In this document: positions 19,138 to 31,765 of the stretch, piece by piece | How positions within the stretch are numbered: position 1 is the stretch's first letter | Layout: each line of letters begins with the position of its first letter | NCBI GenBank assembly: GCA_026981855.1 | Contig: JALSIB010000045.1 | Span: 1-45,979 of the forward strand | DNA length: 45,979 nt | Source: Methylothermaceae bacterium | GTDB taxonomy: Bacteria > Pseudomonadota > Gammaproteobacteria > Methylococcales > Methylothermaceae | Reading direction: 5' to 3' | Notes under the pieces: model-generated | What the model was told of the DNA's origin: nothing | The model's database searches: none | Seen by the model: the letters and a program-made list of their open reading frames with translations, nothing else | Program-made: the position numbers and the translations under genes

Positions 19138-19394
19138 CCCACCTCTCTTTCTCGATGTTCCCGGACCACCGCCAGAATCGCCCGGCCGTAACGCTCCAAT
19201 TTGGCTTCCCCGATTCCGCTCACCGCCATCAACGCCCCTTCGTCCAGGGGGCGGCGCGCCACGATACCCGCCAGGGTGAGATCGTTGAACACGATGTAGG
19301 GCGGCACGTTCTGGGCCTCCGCCAAGCGCCCGCGAAACGCCTGATAGCCGAATACCGTTCGCAGAATCTCTTCGGCCGTCGCCCGATCCGGCAT
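19134..19394 (-). CDS. RecQ-derived mini-protein: RecQ start fused to HRDC domain
   Basis: Protein of 86 residues. Residues 1-23 (ATAEEILRTVFGYQAFRGR) look like the very N-terminus of RecQ helicase, and residues 24-86 (LAEAQNVPPYIVFNDLTLAG, then AVSGIGEAKLERYG) like the RecQ C-terminal HRDC domain. The whole helicase core, zinc and winged-helix parts (some 500 residues) are missing with the frame kept. HRDC alone can bind DNA; no ATPase activity is possible. Overlaps the SDR gene (TGATG) and the glutaredoxin gene (ATGA). It is either a real deletion, a remnant, or a small stand-alone HRDC family. Confidence 0.75.
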   Translation of the reverse strand: MPDRATAEEILRTVFGYQAFRGRLAEAQNVPPYIVFNDLTLAGIVARRPLDEGALMAVSGIGEAKLERYGRAILAVVREHREREVG

Positions 19395-20083
19395 CAGAAG
19401 CCCGGCACCGTCAACGACTGGCCGTTGTCCCCTGCTCCAAGGCCCAGAATGTAGGGCGCGGCCCGGTCGGCCCAGGTGACGGCGTCGGGGTAGTGGGCGG
19501 CCATGGCGCCAAAACAGCTGTCGAGCATCTCGGTGTGGATGATGCCGGGATTGAGCGCCACCGCCGCCATGCCAGCGGGCAATTCCTGGGCCAAGGCCCG
19601 GGTCAGACCCTCCACGGCCCATTTGCTGGCGCAATAGGGGGCCACTTCGGGTGAAGTGGAACGGCCCCAACCGGAACTGAAATTGATCACCACCCCCCGC
19701 CGCCTTTCCATCATCGCGGGCAGGAAGGCGCGGATGAGATGGAACACCCCCTTGACGTTGATGTCGATCAACCGGCCAAAGTCGTCCACCGGCACCCGCC
19801 ACAGGGGGGCATTGGCATTGACGATGGCGGCGTTGTTGAGCAGAAAATCCGGGCGCCCGCCACCCTCCAGGCAACGGGTGGCCCATGCGGCCACCGCCCC
19901 GGCGTCGGCCACATCCACCACCTCGAAGCGGCTGTCCGGCCATTGCCGGCGCAACGCCTCGATGCCATCGCGGCCGCGGCCACAGCCCCAAATCGTGTGC
20001 CCTTCGGACAGCCATCTTTCCGCCAGGGCCCGGCCCAGGCCCCGGGTCACCCCGGTGATGACGATGATCTTGTTGTCTGCCAT
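19394..20083 (-). CDS. Short-chain dehydrogenase/reductase
   Basis: NAD(P)-dependent oxidoreductase of 229 residues. Cofactor motif TGVTRGLG near 10-17, NNAA, and the catalytic Ser / Tyr-x-x-x-Lys region (INFSSGWGRS, YCASKWAVEG). Classical SDR of the oxidoreductase/clavaldehyde-dehydrogenase-like group; substrate not known. The ATG has GGGAGC about 12 bases upstream. First gene of the overlapping minus-strand chain and divergent from the MFS gene over 67 AT-rich bases. Confidence 0.9.
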   Translation of the reverse strand: MADNKIIVITGVTRGLGRALAERWLSEGHTIWGCGRGRDGIEALRRQWPDSRFEVVDVADAGAVAAWATRCLEGGGRPDFLLNNAAIVNANAPLWRVPVDDFGRLIDINVKGVFHLIRAFLPAMMERRRGVVINFSSGWGRSTSPEVAPYCASKWAVEGLTRALAQELPAGMAAVALNPGIIHTEMLDSCFGAMAAHYPDAVTWADRAAPYILGLGAGDNGQSLTVPGF

Positions 20084-26454: not shown

Positions 26455-28764
26455 ATGTCCACCACGGCAATGGTCCGGGAAAAGATCGATGAGGCAACCT
26501 ACGACATCGATACCGCGGTCTATGACAGGGCTGTCAGATTCTTCCGCTTTTGCAAACGTTTTCTCCCGCTCCATTTAAACCTCCACGATCCGCAACATGC
26601 CATTCGACGAGGGCATATCCTCGTCTTCAATCATTTCGCCCGTTTCGAAACCCTGATCCCCCAGTATCTGATCCACGAATGTTGCGGCGCCTACTGCTGC
26701 GCCATCGCCCATAGGGAACTGTTCGAGATCGATGACCGTTTGAGCGATTTCCTGATGGCGACCGGGGCGATCCCTCACGACCATCCCGACCTTTTTCCCA
26801 TTCTGGCCATCCAGATCCTCCGGGGGCGCAAGGTGATCATCTTCCCGGAAGGGGGAATGGTGAAAGACCGGCGCGTCATCGATCGCAAGGGTCACTACAG
26901 CATTTTCTCCCGAACCACCCGCGAACGGCGCAAGCAACACACGGGTGCCGCAGTGCTGGGACTGGGACTGGACATCTTCAAACAGGCAGTGCTTGACGCC
27001 GCGAGGCGGGGCGATCACGGCAAGCTGGAACGCTGGCAACGGCGGCTGGGTGTCTCCGATATCGATCGGCTGGTGTCACGCTGCCGGCAACCGACCTTGA
27101 TCGTACCTGCCAACATCACTTTTTTCCCCCTTCGGATCGATCCGAACCTGGTGGAAAAACTGATCACCTCTCTTCGGCCGGGATTGAAAAAACGCTACAT
27201 CGAAGAATTGATCATCGAAAGCAATCTGCTGCTCAAAGAAACGGACATGGATATTCGGCCGGCCCAACCCATCCAGCCGTCTGGTTGCTGGCAGTGGTGG
27301 GAACGCCTGCTGATCCGCAAGCTGGTGCCGCGAATCACCGATGTTACGGAAATCTACCCGTGGCATTTCGCTCCGGGCAAAATCAGGCATCTGCTGGCCA
27401 AGAGACAGCAAACCCACGCCAAAACGATTCGCAATCGTTACATGGAGGCCATGTACAAGGCGGTCACGGTCAACCTCTGCCATCTTGCCGCCACCTTGAT
27501 CTATCTCTGCCTCGAGCAGGAACGCAATGCCATAGACAAACCCCTCTTCCACAGGTCTTTGTATCTTGCCATCAAAAAACTTCAGTGCCACAAAGCCGTT
27601 CACCTGCACCGCAGCCTGCTCGACCCCGACTGTTATCGAACCCTTCCAAATGACGAATGCCGACATTTGCAGCAGTTTCTCTGCACCGCTGAAAACACGG
27701 ACCTGATCGAACCGGTGGCGGGAAAATATCATTTCCTTCCCAAACTCAGGGAGGACTTCACTATCGACACGATACGGCTGGAGAACCCTGTGGCGGTCTA
27801 TGCCAACGAAGTCGCCCCCCTCTCGATGGTCAAAAAAAGCGTTACAGCCGCTTTCGCTCAGGCATCCTCCCTATCGCCCCCTGAACTGGCATTGCTGGCT
27901 TTCGACGATGAGGTACGTTCATGGCGATGGGATCGGGCAATCCATTCCACCTCCTGCTCTGAAACCGACCACGAGGAAATCACCACCATTCCCGGTAAAC
28001 CCTTTTTGCTCAATGCGAAACCCCGAACGAATAGAAGCGTGCTCCTTGTTCACGGCCTTTTGGCCATCCCCGCCGTCATGCGTCCCTTGGGCGAGGAACT
28101 GGCCGATGCGGGTTACACGGTGTTGGGTATTCGTCTGAAAGGACATGGCACTTCGCCCTGTGACCTGCGCGAACGCAGCTGGCAGGAATGGATGCAATCG
28201 GTCTGGCGCGGTTACCGTATCCTCGCCGCCATGAGCGAATCGATCGCCGTGGTTGGGTTTTCCACCGGGGCCCTGTTGGCTCTGCAGCTGGCGGCCGATC
28301 AGCCGGACCGGCTGACAGCGGTGGTCGCGATCACACCGGCGCTGAAATTCCGCTCCTCCATCTTCCAATTGGTTCCACTGATGCATCAGGCCAATCGGTT
28401 GACCCGATGGATCACCCATGAAGGGATGAAAGAATTCGTCGAAAATGCTTCGGAGCATCCTGAAACCAACTATACCCACATTCCGGTCAGGGCACTCTAC
28501 GAGCTTCGGCTGTTGAGCCAGGAAACCGAACGGCGCTTGAACGATGTCCATCTTCCCGCCCTGATCCTGCAAGGTGACCAGGATCCGGTGATCGACCCCG
28601 ATGGTGCCCGGCTGGCCTACGAGAGGCTGGCAAGCCGTTGCAAGACCCTCACGATGATCCATTCCCGCCTGCACGACATCGTTTTTCATGACCCCGGCCA
28701 AGTTCACGCAACCATTCGCTTCTTCCTCGACCAGTACACCCACTGCTCAAGCACCCCGATATGA
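26455..28764 (+). CDS. Acyltransferase-alpha/beta hydrolase fusion protein
   Basis: Protein of 769 residues with two enzyme domains. The first (about 40-330) is a PlsC-like glycerol-phosphate/lyso-lipid acyltransferase with FPEGG at 130-134, but its motif I is His60-x4-Glu65 (NHFARFE) where HX4D is the rule. The second (about 530-760) is a serine hydrolase with SVLLVHG, nucleophile Ser603 in GFSTG, Asp710 and His740. The middle holds a conserved helical stretch of unknown role. It overlaps the following acyl-CoA ligase by ATGA, which suggests joint handling of fatty acids released or re-attached at the inner membrane. Confidence 0.85.
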   Translation: MSTTAMVREKIDEATYDIDTAVYDRAVRFFRFCKRFLPLHLNLHDPQHAIRRGHILVFNHFARFETLIPQYLIHECCGAYCCAIAHRELFEIDDRLSDFLMATGAIPHDHPDLFPILAIQILRGRKVIIFPEGGMVKDRRVIDRKGHYSIFSRTTRERRKQHTGAAVLGLGLDIFKQAVLDAARRGDHGKLERWQRRLGVSDIDRLVSRCRQPTLIVPANITFFPLRIDPNLVEKLITSLRPGLKKRYIEELIIESNLLLKETDMDIRPAQPIQPSGCWQWWERLLIRKLVPRITDVTEIYPWHFAPGKIRHLLAKRQQTHAKTIRNRYMEAMYKAVTVNLCHLAATLIYLCLEQERNAIDKPLFHRSLYLAIKKLQCHKAVHLHRSLLDPDCYRTLPNDECRHLQQFLCTAENTDLIEPVAGKYHFLPKLREDFTIDTIRLENPVAVYANEVAPLSMVKKSVTAAFAQASSLSPPELALLAFDDEVRSWRWDRAIHSTSCSETDHEEITTIPGKPFLLNAKPRTNRSVLLVHGLLAIPAVMRPLGEELADAGYTVLGIRLKGHGTSPCDLRERSWQEWMQSVWRGYRILAAMSESIAVVGFSTGALLALQLAADQPDRLTAVVAITPALKFRSSIFQLVPLMHQANRLTRWITHEGMKEFVENASEHPETNYTHIPVRALYELRLLSQETERRLNDVHLPALILQGDQDPVIDPDGARLAYERLASRCKTLTMIHSRLHDIVFHDPGQVHATIRFFLDQYTHCSSTPI

Positions 28765-30449
28765 ACCCTAAACCTTGGCTGGATTCGTATCCTCCCGGCT
28801 TGCCTCCCCAAGCACCCGTTCCCCGGCATCGCTCCCTGGTGGCGCTGCACCAGGAATGCTGCCGGCGTTATGCCGCCTTGCCCGCCCTGGAAAATCTGGG
28901 TACCTCTTTGAGTTATCGCGAATGGGAAGGCCTGTCCTCGCGCTTTGCCGCTTTTCTTCACCACGAGCTGGGCCTCGTCAAAGGCCAGCGCCTGGCGATC
29001 ATGCTGCCCAACCTGTTGCAATATCCGGTGGTGCTCATGGGAGCGCTCAGGGCGGGGTTGATCGTGGTCAACATCAATCCCCTGTTCACCCCTCGGGAGT
29101 TGGCTCACGAATTGAGCGACTCGAACCCTGCGGCCATCGTGATACTGGAAAATTTCGCCCATGTGCTGGAACAGACAGCCACAAACCTGTGGCCGAACCA
29201 TATCATCACGACTCAGGTCGGCGACCTGCTGCCAGCCCCGAAACGAAACCTGGTGAATGGATGGCTGAAATTACGCGGGCAGGTTCCCCGTTTCGATCTG
29301 CCGAATACCTTCGATTTGTATCGAGTCCTGCGAAGGACCGGAGAAACGCCGGTGAAAGTCGATCTGAGCCCAAACGACCTGGCTTTTCTCCAATATACCG
29401 GCGGCACCACGGGAATCCCAAAAGGGGTGATGCTCAGCCACGCCAATCTGCTGGTCAACATCGAGCAGACCCGGTCGTGGTTGACTTGCGAGAATTGGCA
29501 ACGCCACCTTGACTGCGGTCTCGAAGTTCTGGTGACCGCCCTTCCCCTCTACCATATCTTCGCCCTGACCGCCAATCTGTGTGTCGGAATGGCGCTGGGG
29601 ATGCAAAATCATCTCATCACCGATCCAAGAAATCTCAAGAGAATGATCGGACTTTTACGGAAGGTTCCATTCACTTGTATCACCGGGGTCAATACTTTGT
29701 TCGATCATCTGCTCAGGCAACGCGATTTCCGTCATTTGGATTTCTCCCAATTGAAATTGACTTTGTCCGGGGGGATGCCGATGCATCGATCCGTCGCCGA
29801 GCGCTGGCAGGAAACCACCGGCTGCCCGGTCATAGAAGGATACGGTCTGACCGAGACCTCGCCGGTGGTGACGCTCAACCCTCTCGATATCGAGTCATTC
29901 ACCGGCAGTATCGGCCTGCCACTTCCTGGAACCGACTGCCGCATAGGGGATGAAAACAAATGGATGGGACCGGGAGAAACCGGCGAGTTGTGCGTGAAGG
30001 GCCCCCAGGTCATGCAGGGATATTGGAATCGGCCGGAGGAAACCGGGAGAACCTTCACCGCCGATGGCTGGCTCAAGACGGGGGACATCGCCACCATGGA
30101 TACAAAGGGGTTTTTCTATATCGTGGGCAGAAAGAAGGACATGATCCTGGTATCCGGTTTCAACGTCTATCCAAACGAGATCGAAGAAGTCATCAACGCC
30201 CATCCCGGCGTCGCCGAATGTGCCGCCGTCGGGGTGGCCGATGAACGGACCGGAGAAGCGGTCAAGGTCTTCGTGGTACGAAAGGATCCAAATCTGAGGG
30301 AAACGGAAATCCAGGCATGGTGCCGGGCCAACCTGACCTCCTATAAACGCCCCCACTATATAGAGTTCATCGACACCCTTCCCAAATCCGCAGTGGGAAA
30401 AATCCTCCGCCGACAACTCAGGGATCGATGCCGCCCCGGGCAACCTTGA
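28761..30449 (+). CDS. Long-chain acyl-CoA ligase
   Basis: Adenylate-forming enzyme activating fatty acids with ATP and CoA, 562 residues. AMP-binding motif YTGGTTGIPKGVMLSHANL, then GYGLTETSPV, the hinge KTGDIATMD and the C-terminal RKKDMILVSGFNVYPNEIEEVI and catalytic Lys in KSAVGKILRR. Closest in style to FadD. Start overlaps the stop of the acyltransferase-hydrolase (ATATGA), so the two are coupled; the ligase could recharge acyl groups freed by that protein. Confidence 0.93.
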   Translation: MNPKPWLDSYPPGLPPQAPVPRHRSLVALHQECCRRYAALPALENLGTSLSYREWEGLSSRFAAFLHHELGLVKGQRLAIMLPNLLQYPVVLMGALRAGLIVVNINPLFTPRELAHELSDSNPAAIVILENFAHVLEQTATNLWPNHIITTQVGDLLPAPKRNLVNGWLKLRGQVPRFDLPNTFDLYRVLRRTGETPVKVDLSPNDLAFLQYTGGTTGIPKGVMLSHANLLVNIEQTRSWLTCENWQRHLDCGLEVLVTALPLYHIFALTANLCVGMALGMQNHLITDPRNLKRMIGLLRKVPFTCITGVNTLFDHLLRQRDFRHLDFSQLKLTLSGGMPMHRSVAERWQETTGCPVIEGYGLTETSPVVTLNPLDIESFTGSIGLPLPGTDCRIGDENKWMGPGETGELCVKGPQVMQGYWNRPEETGRTFTADGWLKTGDIATMDTKGFFYIVGRKKDMILVSGFNVYPNEIEEVINAHPGVAECAAVGVADERTGEAVKVFVVRKDPNLRETEIQAWCRANLTSYKRPHYIEFIDTLPKSAVGKILRRQLRDRCRPGQP

Positions 30450-30528: not shown

Positions 30529-30570
30529 TTGATCTGGATCAATTAAAACATATTTTTTGTATGGTATTTT
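30529..30570 (+). promoter_or_regulatory. FNR/ANR box and class II promoter
   Basis: TTGATCTGGATCAA at 30529-30542 is an exact match to the FNR/ANR consensus TTGAT-N4-ATCAA. A -10-like TATTTT at 30565-30570 puts the start point near 30577, so the box centre (30535.5) falls at about -41.5, the class II activation position. The surrounding 80 bases are unusually AT-rich for this genome. The only gene it can serve is the small membrane protein at 30695. The rest of the 30450-30694 gap shows nothing I can name. Confidence 0.72.
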
Positions 30571-30694
30571 GAGCCCCGGCTGTCACAAACAGGGAATTTC
30601 GTAAAAATTCACTGTCCCCCATCCCGGCGGACGAAAGATTCTCCCTGCATCACAGCCAAATCTATTCCAAAAACTACTGTTGAGAGAAAAAACA

Positions 30695-30856
30695 ATGGCG
30701 GAAGAGAAAGAGAAAGACTATTTCTGGCAGATCATCGCAGCCGTGGTGGTTGCCGTCGCAGTGGGCGTGTTCATGGTGAAAAAGTCCGAACAGGACAAAT
30801 ACAAAACCGCCGAGCGGGCGATCCAGGAAGATCCGGCCATGTCATCTTACAGATGA
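30695..30856 (+). CDS. 53-residue single-span membrane protein
   Basis: Small protein starting MAEEKEKDYFWQ, with one membrane span at about 12-28 (rich in Ala and Val), then a basic pair KKSEQDKYKTAERA and an acidic tail. N-terminus acidic and C-side basic, so the C-terminus likely faces the cytoplasm. Weak AGAGA site before the ATG. The reading frame is supported by a clean promoter upstream and a strong terminator 31 bases after the stop, as a monocistronic unit. Function unknown; small subunits of respiratory enzymes are a possible analogy, given the FNR-type control. Confidence 0.72.
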   Translation: MAEEKEKDYFWQIIAAVVVAVAVGVFMVKKSEQDKYKTAERAIQEDPAMSSYR

Positions 30857-30886: not shown

Positions 30887-30922
30887 CAAGAGCGGCCGTT
30901 TCGCAGACGGCCGCTCTTGTTT
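30887..30922 (+). terminator. Intrinsic terminator
   Basis: A perfect 13-bp stem (30887-30899 with 30907-30919), 7-base loop, followed by TTTG. It ends the 53-residue protein unit and lies 10 bases past the stop of the convergent xoxJ-like gene. Confidence 0.75.
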
Positions 30923-30931
30923 GTCAGCACG

Positions 30932-31765
30932 TCAAATCGGGTTGCCTTCCTTGTCCACCAGGGGCACATGGTAGTCCCGCAACACCGCGGCGATGTCCGC
31001 ACGCTTCCGATCGATCAGATCTTGCAGCATTTGCCGCCTTTCCTTGTCGCCACGCCTGACCGCCATGGCGATGGCATAATCGAAGCGAATCCCTTTCTCC
31101 GACTTGAGCGGAATCAATTCATAGTCTCCAGGGTGCTTCCAGGCCAAATAAGCGCCTATCGGCCCCCATACCACCGCCATGTTGATCTTGCCATCGCTGA
31201 ACTCGTTGTCCAGCCTCATCGCGGTGTTGACCGCAGGATCTCCCGTCATGGACTGATAGGTACGGCCCTGTCTGAGCAGCTGGTGACGCAGCAACCAGGT
31301 GACGCCGGGGGTACGGTCGAACATGGCGATCTTCAGCCGCGCCTTGCGCTCGGCCGACAAATCGAACAACTGTTCGGCCTGGTGGATATCGTCGAACCCC
31401 TTGCCTTTGGCCACCACCAATACATAAGTGGACCGATAGTAGGGCTTGGTCGTGGATGCCAGCTCGTAGCCGGCGGGCACGCCCATCACCACGTCACATT
31501 TGTACCGCCCCGTATCGGGATCCTTGGCCTTGAGGGTGTTACGAAGGAAGCCGAGTCTCTGGGGAAACCAAGTATATTCGACCTTCAGCCCCAAATCGTC
31601 GGCAAACAGATGGGCAATCCTGTTCTCGAATCCAGAATCGTCACGGGCGGAAAGCGGCGGATTGGCAGGGTCGGCACACACCCTGAAAGCCGTTTCCTTC
31701 CCCTGCGCCACCTGAACCAATCCAAGCGCCAACACTCCTGCGATGAATCGCCGAACTCTACGCAT
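30932..31765 (-). CDS. XoxJ/MxaJ-like periplasmic binding protein
   Basis: Protein of 277 residues with a signal peptide (cut after VAQG) and a type II periplasmic-binding fold. The stretches RVCADPANPPLS, GFENRIAHLFADDLGLKVEYTWFPQRLGFLRNTLKA, CDVVMGVPAGYE, KPYYRSTYVLV and AVVWGPIGAYLA are hallmarks of the family associated with PQQ methanol dehydrogenases (MxaJ, XoxJ). Such proteins help assemble or deliver a partner to the dehydrogenase. No mxaF/xoxF or cytochrome gene is nearby, so this is an orphan copy. GAGGAGAGG precedes the ATG. Confidence 0.88.
   Translation of the reverse strand: MRRVRRFIAGVLALGLVQVAQGKETAFRVCADPANPPLSARDDSGFENRIAHLFADDLGLKVEYTWFPQRLGFLRNTLKAKDPDTGRYKCDVVMGVPAGYELASTTKPYYRSTYVLVVAKGKGFDDIHQAEQLFDLSAERKARLKIAMFDRTPGVTWLLRHQLLRQGRTYQSMTGDPAVNTAMRLDNEFSDGKINMAVVWGPIGAYLAWKHPGDYELIPLKSEKGIRFDYAIAMAVRRGDKERRQMLQDLIDRKRADIAAVLRDYHVPLVDKEGNPI

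Follow-up and report, generated by a model that had tools for sequence, protein, structure and literature searches.

The DNA analysed here, called the window below, is a stretch of 45,979 nucleotides from the genome of a Methylothermaceae bacterium (Methylococcales). Between the gene of an AMP-binding ligase and a convergent gene for a solute-binding protein it bears a short reading frame, preceded by an FNR box and a candidate -10 element (Table 1). The encoded protein and its orthologues are referred to as family A. Each of the six A-bearing genomes of this genus has the gene of the solute-binding protein next to the family A gene. A strong terminator had been proposed downstream of the frame; a perfect stem is indeed present there, but it is followed by a poor T tract and does not appear in the list produced by a terminator scan of the window, whose entries were at chance level.

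Table 1. Features at and around the family A locus in the window
Feature	Position	Strand	Basis and remarks
AMP-binding ligase, upstream neighbour, outside the unit	28761..30449	+	Pfam; ends 79 nt before the box
FNR box TTGATCTGGATCAA	30529..30542	+	exact match; conserved upstream of orthologues
Weak -10 element TATTTT, 36 nt after the box start	30565..30570	+	class II spacing; predicted transcription start ~30577
Predicted 5′ leader	30577..30694	+	box to ATG 166 nt here; about 91-113 in most loci seen
Family A small membrane protein, 53 aa, MAEEKEKDYFW...SSYR, ATG start, one helix (single span)	30695..30856	+	ORF list, relatives, predicted structure, dN/dS
Perfect 12-bp stem with a 7-nt loop and a weak T tail; possible terminator between convergent genes	30888..30918	.	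by eye
Solute-binding protein (SBP_bac_3), convergent neighbour, outside the unit	30932..31765	-	Pfam, 26.4 bits, exactly at the cut-off

A small membrane protein and its paralogues

The original prediction described the product as a short single-span protein that matches no familiar family and could be missed by annotation, and the analysis supports this description. The AlphaFold2 model is a single long helix (mean pLDDT 79.8), and family A finds nothing above the curated cut-offs of Pfam and NCBIfam. No credible match was obtained when A, its paralogues B and C (see below), and a fourth paralogue from Methylococcus were compared with PDB sequences, a set that comprises many pMMO entries but in which chains of unknown residues lie outside such a search; the best hits (E 0.36) were unrelated proteins. 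A literature search by title and the start of the abstract, with subscription papers and preprints outside its scope, returned no paper on an A-type protein or on the FNR regulon of these bacteria.

The frame of 53 codons is kept across relatives. In an alignment of 18 rows, 10 columns do not vary; these include K, D, F, and W ahead of the helix and K and E behind it. Over the 37-codon core, the median dN/dS is 0.22, with a maximum of 1.46 (268 of 1176 pairs usable). Thus, the gene of the window is a real, conserved gene for a small membrane protein of an unnamed family. It might be argued that such a short frame is spurious and merely lies behind a real or chance FNR box, as the box alone is modestly above chance in the window, and the comparison of the window gene with one near relative gives a dN/dS close to 1 (0.33/0.35, 37 codons). 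This explanation is extremely improbable, given that the frame, its length, and the upstream box are conserved in dozens of genomes, with the low median dN/dS just mentioned.

Homologues, paralogous families included, are found in 124 of the 151 genomes of the order at E ≤ 1. Family A proper, counted as present when profile A1 matches at E ≤ 1e-14, occurs in 67 of the 151, all of them within the 125 genomes of three families (f1, f4, and f8), and in none of the 26 genomes that represent the five other families of the order. These three families appear to include the named methanotrophs, e.g., Methylococcus capsulatus, Methylomonas koyamae, and a Methylohalobius MAG. Since A was not found in 58 of the 125 genomes, it is dispensable. 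The weakest calls (G026 and G113) have neither a box with at most one mismatch in the stretches searched nor a strong fnr match. A scan of 84,980 species confirmed 103 loci, and the best 80 of these belong, by record title, to gammaproteobacterial methanotrophs and to uncultured Methylococcales-type or unspecified proteobacterial MAGs, and also include two records from one MAG labelled Methyloversatilis.

Two paralogous families, B and C, share with A the core KDxFW-helix-K..E, while their tails differ; both were detected only in f1, f4, and f8, and each of five genomes of the Methylococcus group bears four isoforms. Neither C nor two further Methylococcus paralogues give anything above the cut-off in Pfam and NCBIfam. 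The B protein of the window genome passes a model of the LPXTG anchor by 0.2 bits (E 0.013), which is taken as a reflection of the B helix. Family B adjoins, as judged by eye, a ychF-like gene both in this genus and in Methylococcus (B/C loci L033:4971-5135, L265:2796-2975, and L267:3440-3616).

The promoter and the regulator

FNR-type boxes occur in the window twice as exact matches and three times with one mismatch, where a total of 1.31 would be expected by chance; the box alone is therefore not decisive. The second exact palindrome (19758-19771) lies inside a dehydrogenase-like ORF (19394-20083, minus strand; named by eye) and is taken as a chance occurrence. The box in front of the family A gene, on the contrary, is accepted as real because it is conserved upstream of the relatives of A: of 50 family A loci searched for the pattern TTGAY-N4-RTCAA at 20-140 nt upstream of the start, 45 carry it, 32 exactly and 13 with one mismatch, while shuffled sequences give 0.0 and 0.9, respectively. 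The window's own box, at -166, lies beyond this stretch and is not among the 45. The count takes in L060, with an exact box at -48; L163, L174, L190, and L198 are alike in a second, overlapping locus set, which shares genomes with the 50 loci and is not summed with them. In that second set, sorting by pattern puts one B-like protein (L225) under A. The start codons of L014 and L064 were shifted by script.

The spacing between the box and the -10 element is enriched as well, though the hexamers themselves are weak. Of the 47 loci whose box (0-1 mismatch) lies within 190 nt, 34 place their best -10 hexamer 35 or 36 nt beyond the box start when ties are broken towards +36; under the same tie rule, shuffled spacers average 9.5 and never exceed 18 over 300 rounds, and when the first best hexamer is taken instead, the number falls to 19 of 47. 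The hexamers match the consensus at 4.2 of 6 positions on average, compared with 3.9 after shuffling. Hence the promoter layout of the original prediction, an exact FNR box at the class II position followed by a -10 box, stands as far as the box is concerned, whose centre is near -41.5 of the predicted start, and the -10 element has retained its class II spacing but turned out to be weak. The box resembles those of class II promoters activated by FNR in E. coli, where TTGAT-N4-ATCAA is likewise centred about 41.5 bp before the start; unlike in E. coli, half-sites of the TTGAC/GTCAA type and a CTCAA variant are also found here. The CTCAA right half-site (TTGATCTAGCTCAA type) was noticed in the boxes of L020, L027, L056, L058, L061, L069, and L071, all of them adjacent to fnr, and a shifted specificity is possible for such boxes. 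The leader of the window gene exceeds that of most relatives in length, and many orthologues show, 3′ of the -10 element, a C-rich stretch containing a GTTGA-like motif.

The same box is rare in front of the paralogues: with 0-1 mismatch it was found at two of ten family B loci, exact in both cases, and at none of 11 family C loci. Both boxed B genes sit in genomes without A (G003 and G009), which looks as though B had assumed the regulated role there. Two other genomes are also devoid of A (G004 and G005), and the B loci assigned to them by contig number and position (L233 and L232, respectively) have no box with 0-1 mismatch.

Co-occurrence and linkage point to the same regulator. Within the three families, A and fnr are found together in 65 genomes, A alone in 2, fnr alone in 32, and neither in 26; counted by genus, which corrects for relatedness to the genus level only, the numbers are 21, 0, 8, and 10 (Fisher p 7e-5). 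With strong fnr matches alone, they become 64, 3, 31, and 27 for genomes and 20, 1, 7, and 11 for genera (p 2.5e-4). In at least 21 genomes, fnr lies less than 2 kb from A, with a gap of under 500 bp in at least 17, and in the clustering of neighbours it is the most widespread neighbour of A (14 of 50 loci). FNR frames were read at 16 loci (14 of A and two of B), and 15 of them bear the CxxC-x5-C motif and a later cysteine, as does FNR of E. coli, the 16th being cut short. The FNR of the window genome is encoded at L033:7498-8220 and possesses the four cluster cysteines, though its score of 210 bits is below the NCBIfam cut-off of 228. Its recognition helix, like that of L088 from the same genus, reads ATVSR, whereas the other FNR proteins read out have ETVSR. 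Taken together, the conserved box, the spacing, and the co-occurrence and linkage with a four-cysteine FNR support the predicted control, and the window gene is very probably a conserved target of an FNR-type regulator; the oxygen response that such control would bring is expected from the same evidence.

The neighbourhood of fnr may also be read in another way, namely, that A modulates FNR or its signal as a membrane feedback partner encoded beside the regulator gene. The tight linkage and strong co-occurrence speak in favour of this, but the linkage of a regulator gene to a main target is common, A and fnr lie on different contigs in the window genome, and B and C keep the helix core mostly without the box, so that this role is rather improbable.

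In the window genome as a whole, 26 FNR-type palindromes are present versus three for the reversed control, many of them inside ORFs. A hemerythrin gene (Pfam) follows such a box at a distance of 75 bp, and the gene for NqrA (Pfam), the first Na+-NQR gene here, is preceded by an exact box located 151 bp before the ORF as called and ~280 bp before the recognisable NqrA start. The boxed loci of this genome (L048, L049, L047, L052, L046, and L055) include, besides hemerythrin and NqrA, a PEP-synthase-like protein (Pfam) and, by eye, an unknown secreted protein, a dockerin-like protein, and an LptD-like/phosphotransferase pair.

Candidate partners in the membrane

FNR often controls respiration, and the original prediction saw in the protein a small subunit or regulator of a respiratory complex. 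Short single-span subunits of the CydX/CcoQ type, which serve larger membrane enzymes and are often under low-oxygen control, would be the closest parallel, and cytochrome bd and cbb3 oxidases, nitrate reductase, and Na+-NQR are the complexes in which A might act as a small subunit or an assembly factor. In this sense may be read the exact box upstream of the NqrA gene as well as a weak association between A and CydA (57 and 10 genomes versus 37 and 21, p 0.007, uncorrected for kinship). However, A differs from CydX and CcoQ in having no Pfam or NCBIfam match above the cut-off and in occurring in genomes from which searches for CydA and ccoN returned nothing. At E ≤ 1e-60, ccoN (cbb3) was found in 10 of the 151 genomes and in none of the 125 of f1, f4, and f8, the family of the window genome included, so that no cbb3 oxidase was recognised there to host a CcoQ-like subunit. 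A search for CydA gave nothing in 10 A-bearing genomes, of which some are incomplete and one is the window genome, so that a host for a CydX-like subunit was not recognised there either. The narG gene is present in 47 of 151 genomes, including the window genome, but is missing from many A-bearing ones (those of Methylococcus and others). Moreover, B and C were found only in the same three families, and the recurrent neighbours listed for A include no recognisable oxidase gene. The respiratory role is thereby weakened: the distributions of ccoN, CydA, and narG lend no support to cbb3, bd, or Nar as partners, and a place of A in any low-oxygen respiratory complex is considered unlikely.

By linkage and co-regulation, stand-alone pmoC is indicated no less strongly than respiration. 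In the window genome, a stand-alone pmoC (G000:C29, L002:1608-2429), located between ftsX-like and rpoH-like genes (by eye), has an exact FNR box (L002:1524-1537) 70 nt before its start, and exact boxes 69-71 nt before the start of stand-alone pmoC are found in four genomes of this genus, G000 (the window genome), G003, G004, and G009. In three other genomes (G054, G057, and G063), fnr is directly upstream of stand-alone pmoC, and the fnr-pmoC pairs of f4 show no box with 0-1 mismatch before pmoC. The transporter gene that separates A from fnr in G033 and G066 is the gene that precedes the fnr-pmoC pair in G057. A dependence of A on stand-alone pmoC is rejected, as some A-bearing genomes (G022, G035, G044, G083, G116, and G120 among others) give just one PmoC match, and, conversely, of the 26 genomes outside f1, f4, and f8, 20 have a PmoC-like match but no A.

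An investigation of pMMO in native membranes reportedly revealed supernumerary helices of the enzyme. The legend to Fig. 1 in another structural paper marks an unidentified helix (PMC8098663), and a single helix of this kind in the protomer would fit a protein of the size of A, but none of the pMMO helix chains with assigned residues among PDB sequences credibly resembles A, B, or C. As to expression, the main text on oxygen limitation in Methylomicrobium album, in which the word FNR has no occurrence, describes pmo genes as generally down, hemerythrin as up two-fold, and cytochrome oxidase genes as up, the last being a point for the respiratory role (PMC9241951). The fall of pmo genes speaks against a role in methane oxidation, as does the lack of a box in the f4 fnr-pmoC pairs; the boxed hemerythrin gene of the window genome is counted in favour of such a role.

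The most economical reading of A, in view of the shared core, the different tails, and the different promoters of A, B, and C, is that of a low-oxygen isoform of an accessory helix. That A is an isoform within an accessory family is probable. The fuller proposal, according to which A is the low-oxygen isoform of a single-span accessory family in gammaproteobacterial methanotrophs, with the pMMO machinery as the most likely partner, is the best explanation at hand and is put forward tentatively; the partner itself is perhaps to be sought on the pMMO side, a suggestion that should be taken with reserve. When oxygen falls, FNR with its [4Fe-4S] cluster would activate transcription from ~30577. 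By the positive-inside rule, the acidic N-terminal tail of the protein would be exposed on the outer side, and basic residues flanking the C-terminal tail would keep the latter in the cytoplasm. The conserved helix may dock on a membrane partner common to A, B, and C, most likely the methane-oxidation machinery (pMMO), perhaps in a version containing the stand-alone PmoC, whose gene bears the same box, and the tail of A could then alter the assembly, stability, or activity of this partner at low oxygen. A parallel to this proposed role is offered by hypoxia isoforms of small oxidase subunits such as COX4-2 and yeast COX5b, which stand beside other isoforms of a small accessory subunit; the likeness is one of description, the partner of A being putative. 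A broader idea, that methanotrophs carry exchangeable single-helix subunits of the pMMO complex and that FNR swaps in A, plus the stand-alone PmoC in this genus, so as to retune methane oxidation for low oxygen, is speculative and somewhat doubtful.

The same confinement to three families that include named methanotrophs, together with several isoforms per genome, as in the Methylococcus group, would also suit a structural protein that organises the stacked intracytoplasmic membranes, with isoforms for different growth conditions and no attachment to one enzyme. The invariant residues at both ends of the helix suggest a specific contact instead, and such an organising role is judged unlikely.

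Methanotrophs consume methane at the oxygen edge in lakes and sediments, and A bears on the question of how oxidation continues there. As a putative low-oxygen isoform, A may help methane oxidation when oxygen is scarce. It is a conserved, unannotated FNR target, seen only in these families and linked to fnr and, via fnr, to stand-alone pmoC; it thus provides a small, directly testable gene for low-oxygen methane oxidation, for which B and C serve as built-in comparisons.

Some other neighbourhoods, with genes named by eye, may be mentioned. In Methylococcus, family C is close to pqqB/pqqC-like genes, which, along with the solute-binding protein next to A in the genus of the window genome, could point to methanol oxidation or to transport, and at two Methylococcus loci (L257 and L268), A is located downstream of apparent NiFe-hydrogenase genes.
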